From NCBI GenBank assembly GCA_902812465.1, contig CADDZE010000017.1:1-64000 (forward strand): DNA of 64,000 bases, read 5' to 3'. The stretch comes from Acidobacteriota bacterium (GTDB lineage Bacteria; Acidobacteriota; Terriglobia; UBA7540). Position numbers and translations under genes: made by a program. Below, piece by piece: positions 42,937-47,974 of this stretch (position 1 is its first letter; every line of letters begins with the position of its first letter). The notes under the pieces are model-generated. The model saw only the letters and a list, made by a program, of their open reading frames with translations, was not told where the DNA came from and did not search any database.

Positions 42937-43631
42937 CTAAGAAACCGCGACAGTCATCCGGGAGATTGGTCCACTCAGGGCGAGCCACGCATCAAGCTTC
43001 ACATCCGCCTGACCCCCGGTGGTATGAAGGCGCTTGGGCCAACCCACGTAAGGTCGCTTGAACTTTCCATTTCCATCGGTTCGTCAGTGGCAGCCGAATG
43101 CACCTGGAAGCTCACCTTGTAGGCCTCGAGGGGACGAGCGCCGTTGTTGGCGAGTGTAAATCCGCTGATCTCCACCCGGTGAGGCGATGCGACCCCCTTC
43201 AGGTTAGAGACCGAGAGGCCCGTACCTGTATCGAGCACCTCAAGTCGCTGCCCTTGCGACCCCTGACCGGTGCTATAGGTGACTAGCTTAATAGAAGCCT
43301 CCAGAGGCAGAACGCACGGCGGAGGCGTGCCAATCAGGAGTGTTGCTTTCTCGGGATGAGCCGTAACCAGTCCGATGGAGGAAAGTCCGACAAACGCCGC
43401 GGGAGACTGTGTAGGCTGGCACCTATCGCAGTGGATGATCGTACAATTCCCGTAAATGTCGCAGCAGGACGCACAAGCACCACAGTCGCCGTCGATGCAG
43501 GTGCCAGCACCTTGCGTAGTGCATTGACCGGTTCCGCCACAGGCACTGCGGTAGGCATAGGCGGTACAGTCCTGACTGCGGGCGCTCGCGGCGAAGAGGA
43601 GGCATGTTAAGGCCAAGAATTTGGCCGTCAT
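42937..43631 (-). pseudogene. Cysteine-rich secreted protein with a probable single-base frameshift near its end
   Basis: As read, the frame stops at 42999 after 210 aa. Signal peptide (MTAKFLALTCLLFAASARSQ), then about 14 cysteines in 60 residues (SACGGTGQCTTQGAGTCIDG, CGACASCCDIYG), then a beta-rich domain (HRVEISGFTLANNGARPLEA, YKVSFQVHS). After FIPPG the frame becomes VRRM and stops. Adding one G to the GGGGG run near 43015-43020 gives GGQADVKLDAWLALSGPISR and MTVAVS with a stop at 42937-42939, a natural beta-type C-terminus. The ATG has AGGGGTGAG just upstream. Family not recognised; the protein is exported and probably disulfide-bonded. Confidence 0.6.
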
Positions 43632-44088: not shown

Positions 44089-44634
44089 ATGGGAAAGAGG
44101 CACTCGGAAGCCAAGTGTCGTAAGAACCTCGGTGGGAGCCAGCCGCCGGCAGCGACCCAGGTGGTGCTTCGCCCCTTTCGGGCCGAAGACCTGGAGAGAC
44201 TGCACCAGATTGACCAGCATTGTTTCCCACCTAGGATTGCTTATTCCCGCGACGAACTGGCGGCCTTTATCACCCATCCAGGGGCGTGCACCTGGGTGGC
44301 CCAGGCAGGCGCGGAGATCGTGGGATTTCTGGTGGCAGACCGGTCGCCTGACCGCGCGGGACATGTGGTGACCATCGATGTGGTCGAAGCCTGGCGAAGG
44401 CGGGGCGTGGGCACGCTCCTCATGAAGGTCGCCGAGCAGTGGGCTCGCAAGCAGGGCTTGCGTCTGATGTACCTCGAGACCCCCGAGGACAATCGCCCCG
44501 CCCAAGCCTTTTATCGTCGCCTTGGCTACCAGTACTATCGGACGGTGGAACGCTACTACGGCAACGGTGCATCCGCTTGGGTGATGGTGAAGTGGCTCCG
44601 TCCGGATGGACGGTTGGAAATGAGCGACGGATGA
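44089..44634 (+). CDS. GNAT-family N-acetyltransferase, RimI-like
   Basis: 181 aa from ATG 44089, with GGAAG about ten bases upstream. After a 25-residue tail comes VVLRPFRAEDLERLHQIDQH, then FLVADRSPDRAGHVVTIDVV, the acetyl-CoA pyrophosphate loop RRRGVGTLLMKVAEQWARKQ, and LRLMYLETPEDNRPAQAFYR with RLGYQYYRTVERYYGNG. This is the RimI pattern (protein N-terminal or small-molecule acetylation). The substrate is unknown. The CPBP protease gene starts 10 nt downstream with its SD in the gap, so they form one operon. Confidence 0.88.
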   Translation: MGKRHSEAKCRKNLGGSQPPAATQVVLRPFRAEDLERLHQIDQHCFPPRIAYSRDELAAFITHPGACTWVAQAGAEIVGFLVADRSPDRAGHVVTIDVVEAWRRRGVGTLLMKVAEQWARKQGLRLMYLETPEDNRPAQAFYRRLGYQYYRTVERYYGNGASAWVMVKWLRPDGRLEMSDG

Positions 44635-44644
44635 TGAGGAGACC

Positions 44645-47600
44645 ATGCCGATCAAGCTGACTTCTCCGCAGTATCGGGTGATGGCCCTGACCGCCCTGGT
44701 GGCCGTCGCTTCGCTGGCCTTCACCCTGAAGTACTTTGCGCGCGCCTTTCCAGAAGCCAGCCTGGAATTGCGTGTCAACCGCGATGAATCCGCCCGCCGC
44801 GCGCAGCAATTTCTTGCCGCGCGCGGCTTCCATCTAGAAGGGTATCGCCACGCTGCCGTGTTCACCTACGACGATGAGGCGAAGCTCTATCTCGAGCGAA
44901 CGCAGGGTCTCGAGCGCATGAACCAGCTTACACGCGGCCCCGTGCGTTTATGGCGCTGGTCGCACCGCTGGTTCCGGCCCCAGCAGAAGGAAGAGTTTCG
45001 CGCCGACGTGACGCCCGCGGGCGAGATCGCGGGCTTCACGCACGAGACGGCTGAGGATGCCCCCGGGGCCAACCTAGACCCGCCCGCGGCGCGAACCATC
45101 GCTGAGTCCTTCCTGCGCGATGCGCTGAAGCGCAACCTGGACGACCTGGAGCTTCTCGACATGGAGAGCACCAAACGCCCGGCGCGCACCGACCACTTCT
45201 TCACTTGGAAGCTGAAAAGTGTCAACCTCGGTGAAGGCAGCCTCCGCCTGGAAGTAGAGGTCGACGGCAACCAGGTAGCCGCCTATCGCGAGTTTATTAA
45301 GGTGCCAGAGCAGTGGACCCGCAGCTACCAGCAACTCCGCTCGCGCAACAACGCCGCCCAGATCGTGGATGAGGTCTTCTGGCTGGTACTCAGCGTCGTG
45401 ATGCTAGCGAACCTGCTGATGCGGCTTCGCGACCGCGACGTCCCTTTGCGCTTGTGCGCTGGCCTAGGCGTCACGGCCGCGGTGCTCTACTTGCTTAGCC
45501 AGGCAAACACCTTCTCACTAGCCGAATACAGCTATCCGACCACCTCGTCGTACGCGAGCTTTGTGGTCTCCTATTTTCGCGATGGGCTGCTGAGCGCGCT
45601 GGGAGTGGGGGTCGGCATCTTCCTCGTCGTTGCTGCTTCAGAACCAGCCTACCGCGAAGGCCTACCCCATCTCATCTCGTTACGCAGCTACTTCACATGG
45701 CAGGGCCTTCGCACTCGGTCGTTCTTCATGGCCAACGTGGTCGGCCTTGGCCTTACCTTCTTCTTTTTCGCCTACCAGGTGGGCTTCTATCTTACGGCCA
45801 ACCGCCTTGGTGCCTGGGCGCCATCGGACGTCAACTTCTCAGATGAACTGAACACCCGCATCCCCTGGGTATCCGTGCTGTTCGGTGGCTTTCTGCCGGC
45901 GGTGCTGGAGGAGATGCAGTTTCGTGCCTTCGCCGTGCCTTTTCTGAAGAAGGTCACACGGTCCTGGGCGCTGGCCGTTGTCCTGTCGGCTTTCAACTGG
46001 GGTTTCCTGCATTCCGCCTATCCGAATGAGCCGTTCTTCATTCGCGGCGTGGAAGTAGGCCTGGGTGGCATCATCATCGGCGCGGTGATGCTGCGCTTCG
46101 GCATCCTGGCCACGCTTATCTGGCACTACTCCGTCGACGCGCTCTACACGGCCTTTCTTCTTCTCCGCTCTCACAACTCGTACCTGGTGCTGTCCGGGGG
46201 GCTGACGGCAGGCATCATGCTCATCCCGCTATTGCTCGCCGCGGTCGCTTACTGGAGAAGTGGAACCTTCCTGGAGGAGGCTGGCCTGACCAACGCCAGC
46301 GTAGGGGTGGTGCGTGCCCCGCGAGCGGAGGCCGTGAAGGGAACGGCCAGCCTCCCGGCCTACGAGCTTCTGCCGCGTGGAAGGGTGGCGATGGCCTTCA
46401 TCTTGATCGCCGTCTTTATCTCCACCGCGCTCCTTCCTGTCTACCGCTTTGGGCAGGGCCTTCGCGTCCGAATGACACGCAGCGACGCCTTGCGCCTCGC
46501 CCGCGCGTGCCTGGTAGCCCAGCACGTGCCGGCGGCAAGCTACCACAGCGTCGCGTGGCTGCAGGAAAACGTCGACGACCGCGCTCTGCAGTACCTGGTG
46601 GAGCATCGGTCGCTGGCCCAAGCCGACCAAATCTACCGCCAGGCCACGCGCCCCTTGGTGTGGGTGGTGCGCTACTTCCGCCCTCTACAGAAGGAGGAAT
46701 ACCTCGTCTTCCTCGACGCCGCTCAAGGCGAAGTGGTCGACGAGCGCCACGTCATGGATGAGGCAGCTCCCGGTGCGTCCCTGACGCCTGACCAAGCTCG
46801 CCACCTTGCCGAACAGGCGCTCATCCGGCGCGGCTACTCCCCCGACCACTTCGAATTGCAGGAATCCGAATCGGAAAAACGGAAAGCCCGCCAGGACTAC
46901 ACGCTTGTCTGGCAAGCCAAGCCGGGTGACCCGCGCAACGTGGCCGGCGCTTACTACTGGCTCGAAGTCAATATTGCCGGTGATCAGGTGGTAGGGTTCA
47001 CCCGCAGGTTCAAGCTGCCGGAAGAGTGGATTCGGCACTACGAGTCCACCCGTCTGGCTAACGCCATCCTGCTGGGGATCCGACTGTTGCTGGGGGGAGG
47101 CATCTTCGGCGGGCTGATCGTTCTCCTCGTCCGGCAGGTGCGCCGCGGAAGCATTCGCTGGCGGGCCTCGCTGGTCGTGGGCGCGCTCACGGCTGTCCTT
47201 TTTGCACTTACCGAACTAAATGCTCTGCCGATTGCCGACCAGCGCTATGACACTTCGATTCCCCTCGCCACTTTCCGGCTCTTTGAAAGCATCAGCTTCT
47301 TGGTAGTCTCCGCACTGGCCGGTCTGCTGAGCGTGCTGCTGGTAGCACTGGCCACTAGTCTCTATCCCGATGCGTGGCAAGTGCTGCGGGGTGCAGCCCG
47401 CCACCTCTGGCGCCGCGATGCCGCGATGGCGACGGCTGTAGGGCTTGCCGCGGGATTTGGCACCCGCCGCCTCGGGGCTCTGCTGCATGCGCGGTACCCC
47501 GCTTATGGCGTCCCATCTGCCCTGAACGCCAGCTTGTATAATCCCGCCTGGCCAGCTCTGACCGTTTGGCTTGAAGCGCTACTGGCAGCCATCTCTTCCG

Positions 47601-47974
47601 CGGCCGGGTTAGCCCTCGTGATTTGGGCTGTGCGTCGCGGCTGGGAGCAGCGTTCGCCCTGGTTCTGGACTGGGGTAACCCTCTTGCTGGTGAGTCTGGG
47701 ACCCTATCGGGCTCACTCGCTCCGGGAATACGGATTCGGCCTGGCACTTGCCCTTGTCTCACTCGCAATTGCTGCGCTGGTCTTAGCAGTCTTCTTCCGC
47801 AGCAACGCCCTGGCTTACGTGATGGCCGCGTTCGTTCTACCCCTCGCGGGGCCAATCGCTCGGTTGGTGGAAACGCCTTCGGGATTCTTCCGTTGGAACG
47901 GTGTGGCAGCGCTATCCTTGGCAATAGTTACTTTGGGATGGTTACTTTCAGGAAGCCAGGAGAAAACGGCCTAA
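44645..47974 (+). CDS. Very large CPBP-type intramembrane protease with duplicated extracytoplasmic module
   Basis: 1109 aa; ordinary CPBP proteases are 200-300 aa. N-terminal TM (about 12-30), extracytoplasmic module A (about 42-235), a TM block with the ABI/CPBP signature EEMQFRAF (E422, E423, R427), FNWGFLH (H456) and IWHYSVDA (H494), then another TM (about 580-595), module B (about 605-820), and eight or so C-terminal TMs. Modules A and B share the order RYFRP/RWFRP-QQKEE/LQKEE, E-x2-PGA, DD/DHxELxExES and LEVEV/LEVNI-GxQV, ending VPEQWTRSYQ and LPEEWIRHYE. CPBP proteases cleave membrane substrates with glutamate/His chemistry. ATG has GAGGAG upstream. Converges with tsaD. Confidence 0.88.
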   Translation: MPIKLTSPQYRVMALTALVAVASLAFTLKYFARAFPEASLELRVNRDESARRAQQFLAARGFHLEGYRHAAVFTYDDEAKLYLERTQGLERMNQLTRGPVRLWRWSHRWFRPQQKEEFRADVTPAGEIAGFTHETAEDAPGANLDPPAARTIAESFLRDALKRNLDDLELLDMESTKRPARTDHFFTWKLKSVNLGEGSLRLEVEVDGNQVAAYREFIKVPEQWTRSYQQLRSRNNAAQIVDEVFWLVLSVVMLANLLMRLRDRDVPLRLCAGLGVTAAVLYLLSQANTFSLAEYSYPTTSSYASFVVSYFRDGLLSALGVGVGIFLVVAASEPAYREGLPHLISLRSYFTWQGLRTRSFFMANVVGLGLTFFFFAYQVGFYLTANRLGAWAPSDVNFSDELNTRIPWVSVLFGGFLPAVLEEMQFRAFAVPFLKKVTRSWALAVVLSAFNWGFLHSAYPNEPFFIRGVEVGLGGIIIGAVMLRFGILATLIWHYSVDALYTAFLLLRSHNSYLVLSGGLTAGIMLIPLLLAAVAYWRSGTFLEEAGLTNASVGVVRAPRAEAVKGTASLPAYELLPRGRVAMAFILIAVFISTALLPVYRFGQGLRVRMTRSDALRLARACLVAQHVPAASYHSVAWLQENVDDRALQYLVEHRSLAQADQIYRQATRPLVWVVRYFRPLQKEEYLVFLDAAQGEVVDERHVMDEAAPGASLTPDQARHLAEQALIRRGYSPDHFELQESESEKRKARQDYTLVWQAKPGDPRNVAGAYYWLEVNIAGDQVVGFTRRFKLPEEWIRHYESTRLANAILLGIRLLLGGGIFGGLIVLLVRQVRRGSIRWRASLVVGALTAVLFALTELNALPIADQRYDTSIPLATFRLFESISFLVVSALAGLLSVLLVALATSLYPDAWQVLRGAARHLWRRDAAMATAVGLAAGFGTRRLGALLHARYPAYGVPSALNASLYNPAWPALTVWLEALLAAISSAAGLALVIWAVRRGWEQRSPWFWTGVTLLLVSLGPYRAHSLREYGFGLALALVSLAIAALVLAVFFRSNALAYVMAAFVLPLAGPIARLVETPSGFFRWNGVAALSLAIVTLGWLLSGSQEKTA

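Follow-up and report, generated by a model that had tools for sequence, protein, structure and literature searches.

Why should a bacterial membrane protease carry two similar extracytoplasmic modules and, behind the second of them, a further bundle of transmembrane helices? The question is raised by an open reading frame (ORF) at positions 44645–47974 on the plus strand of the window, the 64,000-nucleotide stretch of DNA analysed here, which comprises positions 1 to 64,000 of contig CADDZE010000017.1 (GenBank assembly GCA_902812465.1) from a soil-type Acidobacteriota bacterium (Terriglobia; UBA7540). The ORF encodes a protein of 1109 aa. Judged from sequence comparisons and structure models, an entire unit of ∼550 aa, made up of an anchor helix, a module and nine further helices, occurs twice in this protein, and the second copy, which lacks the catalytic set in every tandem examined, is kept by selection. 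With moderate confidence, the tandem is interpreted as a CPBP intramembrane glutamate protease with a built-in inactive partner, in other words a fused pseudo-heterodimer whose PepSY modules sense or gate.

One unit, present twice

An earlier note on this DNA, prepared without database searches, had proposed that the two modules of about 200 residues are copies of each other. Residues 42–235 and 605–820 share 35% identity over 202 columns (BLASTP, E 8e-31), a value that rules out chance similarity. Module and bundle profiles were built from 48 tandems, and the profile–profile comparison of modules 1 and 2 (hhalign), the test on which the note had staked its claim, returned a probability of 100 (E 4e-54). 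The likeness extends well past the module: the first 470 and the last 549 residues of the protein align with 29% identity over 417 columns (E 2e-33), and the ∼110 residues that follow each module, 237–345 and 804–912, match with a probability of 99 (E 4e-19). The remaining bundle, 345–560 against 912–1109, gives a probability of 92 (E 7e-7) and is collinear over 169 columns. The latter value falls to 1.2–1.5 when the columns are reversed as a control, and an independent realignment yields 84 versus 1.5 reversed. Furthermore, an hmmsearch with a profile of residues 237–565 detects 40 of the 48 B membrane parts at E < 0.01. It also picks up 3 of 54 membrane ORFs used as background, of which two lie in loci fetched as other CPBPs and the third was not identified.

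On the strength of these alignments, the homology of the two halves is proven over the module and the first membrane part (∼110 residues). Homology of the last bundle to the CPBP core is supported, not proven, and the bundle makes most sense as a degenerate copy of the one that bears the protease. The architecture outlined in the earlier note is therefore partly revised: a protease core lying between duplicated modules stands, whereas the module copy plus an 'extra' bundle gives way to a tandem of the whole unit.

The protease core of the first half

The Rce1-like family PF02517 is the only one of the three Pfam families listed for the 1109-aa protein to exceed its cut-off (38.3 bits against 22.4; E 1.7e-9). 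The match covers residues 407–499 (45863–46141, plus strand) and contains an EExxxR motif and two conserved histidines in the same order as in Rce1. E422 and E423 (45908–45913), H456 (46010–46012) and H494 (46124–46126) are found precisely where the active site had been placed from the letters alone, and together with R427 and D498 they are invariant in all 48 A halves. In addition, the A core displays the lowest ratio of nonsynonymous to synonymous substitutions (dN/dS), 0.05–0.18 in seven pairs with dS under 1. Owing to this strict residue invariance and to the low dN/dS, we regard the A half as a functional CPBP protease, which upholds the glutamate protease core of the earlier note. The 1109-aa protein matched neither a solved structure, when compared by sequence, nor a plasmid.

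A second copy without an active site

The C-terminal bundle had been described as devoid of a second active site and this description holds for every tandem compared: no EExxxR-like motif is present in the part after the module in any of the 48 B halves, and the columns aligned to the catalytic glutamates are occupied by mixed residues. The dN/dS values were computed for ten pairs (NG86), three of which were saturated; in the other seven, with dS under 1, the B half ranges from 0.19 to 0.45 and the A half from 0.10 to 0.22. These ranges indicate that the B half is under purifying selection and less constrained than A. Mean pairwise identity is 0.43 for module 1, 0.32 for module 2, 0.50 for the A core and 0.23 for the last B bundle.

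Predicted structure and topology

The full protein was modelled with AlphaFold2 using 23 relatives, of which one is truncated by its contig (mean predicted local distance difference test score, pLDDT, 86.6; predicted template modelling score, pTM, 0.80), and the B half alone using 22 sequences (pLDDT 91.0, pTM 0.86). In the full model, unit A opens with an anchor helix (residues 7–34; 44663–44746), its N terminus predicted inside, which is followed by module 1 (residues 42–235; 44768–45349) and by a membrane part of nine helices that harbours the CPBP core and its catalytic residues (residues 236–550; 45350–46294). A predicted cytoplasmic linker (about residues 540–577; 46262–46375), which contains the lowest-confidence stretch of the model, leads to the anchor helix of unit B (residues 578–595; 46376–46429), module 2 (residues 608–803; 46466–47053) and a second membrane part of nine helices, without EExxxR according to the motif scan (residues 804–1101; 47054–47947). 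All these features lie on the plus strand. The helices after the module span residues 222–263, 268–288, 303–339, 358–387, 407–438, 441–455, 466–485, 487–507 and 512–539 in unit A, and 804–833, 839–859, 874–906, 916–950, 970–1002, 1005–1017, 1026–1051, 1055–1076 and 1080–1101 in unit B. The modelled halves thus match nine to nine and in the same order, in a count that ignores very short helices and treats 407–438 and 512–539, each split in two by DSSP, as single helices.

With the N terminus set inside, lysine and arginine account for 15.8% of the short inside loops and for 4.3% of the short outside loops across the 48 tandems, and the alternation of charge between inside and outside is alike in both halves. 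By the positive-inside rule both modules are predicted to be extracytoplasmic, as had been anticipated.

The earlier note had not recognised the architecture. The models make the module recognisable as a tandem PepSY fold of the YpeB type. The best match of the B-half model is 5boi, the tandem PepSY domains of YpeB (Z 11.6, root-mean-square deviation 4.0, 149 aligned, 12% identity), followed by the lipoprotein 4exr (Z 8.1, 65 residues); the full model also matches 5boi (Z 12.1). Second in the list for the full model is the CAAX protease MmRce1 (4cad_C; Z 6.9, root-mean-square deviation 5.1, 182 residues, model 247–505), with a Z that is modest for a helical bundle. With Foldseek, neither model gave a match at or below E 0.001. 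The 5boi match in the full model runs from residue 41 to 749 and covers both modules, which gives a hint, and no more, that the two modules pack together.

Distribution and origin

A search with the 1109-aa protein detected a relative in 38 of the 297 genomes sampled across the phylum. Among 61 related genomes 42 had one; these include 32 of the 37 genomes of the window's own family, and the five family genomes without a match are 57–88% complete. This recurrence, together with the 48 long tandem sequences, rules out an assembly artefact. The search of the sampled phylum supplied 27 of the tandems and a scan of contigs with short query peptides the other 21; the 28 loci recovered by the latter are all titled Acidobacteria or their classes. 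One 2023-aa frame, that of G262, looks like an open non-coding frame that runs into an ordinary tandem.

Eight relatives of ∼550 aa consist of a single unit with the full catalytic set (L030–L033 and L069–L072). Since such proteins exist with an intact site, a single module suffices for the basic protein. A further candidate, L075, had entered the unit alignment and the whole-unit tree as a 'dead single unit'. It is the end of a tandem instead, because unread bases break up the gene, and the tail of an A half lies upstream in the same frame; hence, it was not counted as a single unit. Broken or cut pieces (L060, L067, L068, L074, L076) and loci at contig ends (L047, L049, L051, L057, L059, L064) were likewise kept outside the tandem and single counts. 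Two other single-unit loci with an intact catalytic set, L077 and L078, have a common gene cluster, which in L077 encompasses a SpoIIE phosphatase, a histidine kinase, a LytTR regulator and a permease of the ATP-binding cassette (ABC) type, ABC-2; an ABC ATPase-like gene also adjoins the single-unit proteases of L077 and L078.

In a whole-unit tree of 63 rows, the B halves and L075 fall on one side of a branch with 100/100 support, and the A halves and the single units on the other. A tree of the module and first membrane part (58 rows, SH-aLRT only) places the A halves in one clade (99) and groups the B halves with one long-branched phosphatase unit (98), with the f4 family's single units attached to A and B (87). 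Based on the groupings in both trees, the tandem probably arose once.

Distant relatives linked to phosphatases and kinases

A profile of 11 units, run against 396 genomes, matched 103 at E 0.001. Many of these matches are likely to be ordinary CPBP proteins, as they involve the CPBP core only. Twenty places with long frames were picked by eye from the profile list, without taking all, and fetched: 17 yielded 19 matching ORFs, L147, L148 and L153 yielded none, and the addition of L073 brought the set to 20 ORFs. Of the 19, 15 have a SpoIIE domain above cut-off, as does L073, which makes 16 of 20; they come from loci within L135–L150 and from L073, in several Acidobacteriota families. Three ORFs (L151, L152, L154) have an N-terminal protein kinase and a C-terminal membrane part that matches the unit profile weakly (E about 1e-6); two of the three show an N-terminal zinc-ribbon match, one above cut-off. 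The ORF of L142, at a contig end, has neither SpoIIE nor kinase. None of the 20 ORFs keeps the protease catalytic set, and no SpoIIE domain is among the three Pfam families listed for the window's protein. As the C terminus of the unit is predicted inside, a fused phosphatase would be cytoplasmic, as needed.

At three loci (L138, L139, L146) one ORF bears the degenerate phosphatase motif AEGGGxG in place of the metal-binding [AG]DVSGKG. Directly downstream on the same strand, at all three of these loci with a degenerate phosphatase, stands an ORF with a canonical SpoIIE-type motif. The intact partner motif was read in L139 and L146, and L138 was checked for an EVGGD-type stretch only; the unit profile, too, finds two of the three partners. 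These loci may represent pseudo-phosphatase/phosphatase pairs and, to judge from them, the pairing of a live with a dead member recurs in the family. In the 58-row tree 14 of 15 phosphatase units group with single units of family f27, away from B; because of this separation, B and the phosphatase branch probably lost protease activity independently.

A proposed mechanism and its alternatives

How could a dead half serve a live one? Ancestral single units may have worked as homodimers held via their PepSY modules, and fusion would have fixed a heterodimer in which one subunit could evolve into a regulator without catalysis. Together, the two extracytoplasmic modules would form one sensing or gating platform; a ligand or a state of the envelope at the modules would move the dead bundle relative to its live counterpart, and this displacement would open or close the access of a membrane-inserted substrate to E422/E423/H456/H494. 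The fused pseudo-heterodimer is suggested by the cross-linking of YpeB PepSY domains as dimers or multimers, described in PMC6660665, and by the recurrence of live/dead pairs in the phosphatase branch. That a dead unit can be useful is indicated by the protease-dead unit that forms the membrane part of the SpoIIE/PP2C phosphatases. A sensing role for the modules is plausible.

A number of points weigh against this interpretation. The dimerisation of single units, the gating by the dead half and the sensing are all steps that we infer, and no experiment on a member turned up in the literature. The homology of the last bundle (∼913–1105) to the CPBP core is drawn from profile–profile comparison, and its signal is gone when the seven most distant sequences or the close relatives are used alone. 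An hmmsearch with a CPBP-only profile (residues 340–560) detects 1 of 48 B halves, against a background of 3 of 54. Moreover, the H456 column is still histidine in 16 of the 48 B halves, where a residual role is possible. Finally, the grouping of the A halves with the single units in one tree also allows that the latter may be shortened tandems.

A wider proposal, which we put forward only tentatively, is that of an undescribed Acidobacteriota receptor superfamily in which a tandem PepSY and CPBP unit is mounted on varied outputs (its own proteolysis, SpoIIE/PP2C, possibly a kinase) and arranged in live/dead pairs. The pairs would be fused in the protease branch, with the dead half gating the live one, and would consist of adjacent degenerate and working phosphatases in the other.

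Alternatively, the second half might be a passive spacer or stability scaffold, like APH-1 in γ-secretase, and the modules might merely position substrates, with no sensing or gating. APH-1, classed with the type II CAAX proteases, retains a QExxR remnant (PMC6588880), and the B membrane part changes most rapidly, which a scaffold would be expected to do. However, module 2 is better conserved than the B bundle, so that selection in B holds the extracytoplasmic part most, and related units are found on phosphatases, where a sensor is expected. We regard this explanation as unlikely, if still a serious contender. Less probable again is a general membrane receptor for which proteolysis is not the main output: the CPBP core would either target the receptor itself or hardly be active, and signalling would proceed via partners. 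The 16 SpoIIE/PP2C fusions, the three kinase-linked variants and the cluster common to L077 and L078 would suit such a receptor, as would the Abi-domain proteins SpdC and Abx1, which are reported to act on or bind histidine kinases. Against it stand the invariant catalytic set in every A half and the lowest dN/dS in the A core, both of which a working enzyme would show. Replacement of the protease bundle by an unrelated membrane domain after duplication would fit the failure of the CPBP-only profile and the absence of CPBP structures from the matches listed for the B-half model, most of which concern the PepSY module. It is made very improbable by the equal number and order of helices, the same loop charges and the collinear 169-column match.

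If the fused pseudo-heterodimer is correct, a CPBP protease joined to its own dead paralogue would offer a natural single-chain system for the control of a live intramembrane protease by a pseudo-protease. For PepSY domains, which have ties to proteases and lytic enzymes but a role that is still ill-defined, the attachment to an intramembrane protease, and in relatives to phosphatases, would allow a sensor function to be tested directly.

The locus and its neighbours

The ATG of the tandem gene is preceded by GAGGAG, which resembles a ribosome-binding site. Directly upstream on the same strand lies a GNAT (RimI-like) gene region (44212–44631, plus strand), with 10 bases between the stop of the GNAT-domain ORF and the start codon of the tandem. 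An upstream GNAT gene is kept at 8 of 43 compared loci and an upstream UbiE-type methyltransferase occurs at 3. No neighbour is common to the whole tandem family among these 43 loci, and therefore the gene context names no substrate. On the other side of the tandem gene lies a convergent, presumably TsaD-like ORF. Elsewhere in the window, a 210-aa ORF on the minus strand (42999–43631) starts with a signal-like sequence and is rich in cysteine over part of its N-terminal region.

Comparison with known systems

No published description of the tandem architecture was found by title or abstract start, and the main text of a survey of bacterial PP2C phosphatases (PMC12088040), in the part available, contains no mention of CAAX, PepSY, DUF4901, Acidobacter or Rce1. 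The first half resembles the CPBP or type II CAAX prenyl endopeptidases (Rce1-like, MmRce1) in its EExxxR motif and two histidines in order, its Pfam score and its alignment to 4cad. The tandem differs from these enzymes in its 1109 aa, where they have one bundle, and in its extra leading helices, PepSY modules and dead second unit. ABC_perm_CPBP (NF041647) is likewise a larger membrane protein that ends in a CPBP domain, and it matches residues 344–498, with 32.1 bits against a cut-off of 435; its other part is an ABC permease. Among bacterial CPBP proteases with a known role, myxosortase sorts surface proteins (PMC11980579). A comparable sorting role is possible for the tandem by analogy, and nothing examined points to it.

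The module shares its fold with the C-terminal PepSY domains of YpeB, at 12% identity; in the tandem, however, it is membrane-integrated and lies inside a protease. The PepSY protein CD1622 (4exr) has a similar fold. DUF4901 (PF16244), the repeated domain of YcdB and YcdC, matches module 1 weakly at residues 105–189 (E 5.4e-4); its 20.5 bits fall short of the curated cut-off, 27.

Dead relatives of enzymes act as regulators among rhomboids and in the case of APH-1, which is not itself the protease of its complex and is the partner of an aspartyl protease. APH-1 has a CPBP-like bundle and is related to the proteases (PMC6588880). It is a separate chain, whereas the dead half of the tandem is fused to its own live paralogue; of the precedents for a partner with a CPBP-like bundle, APH-1 comes closest.

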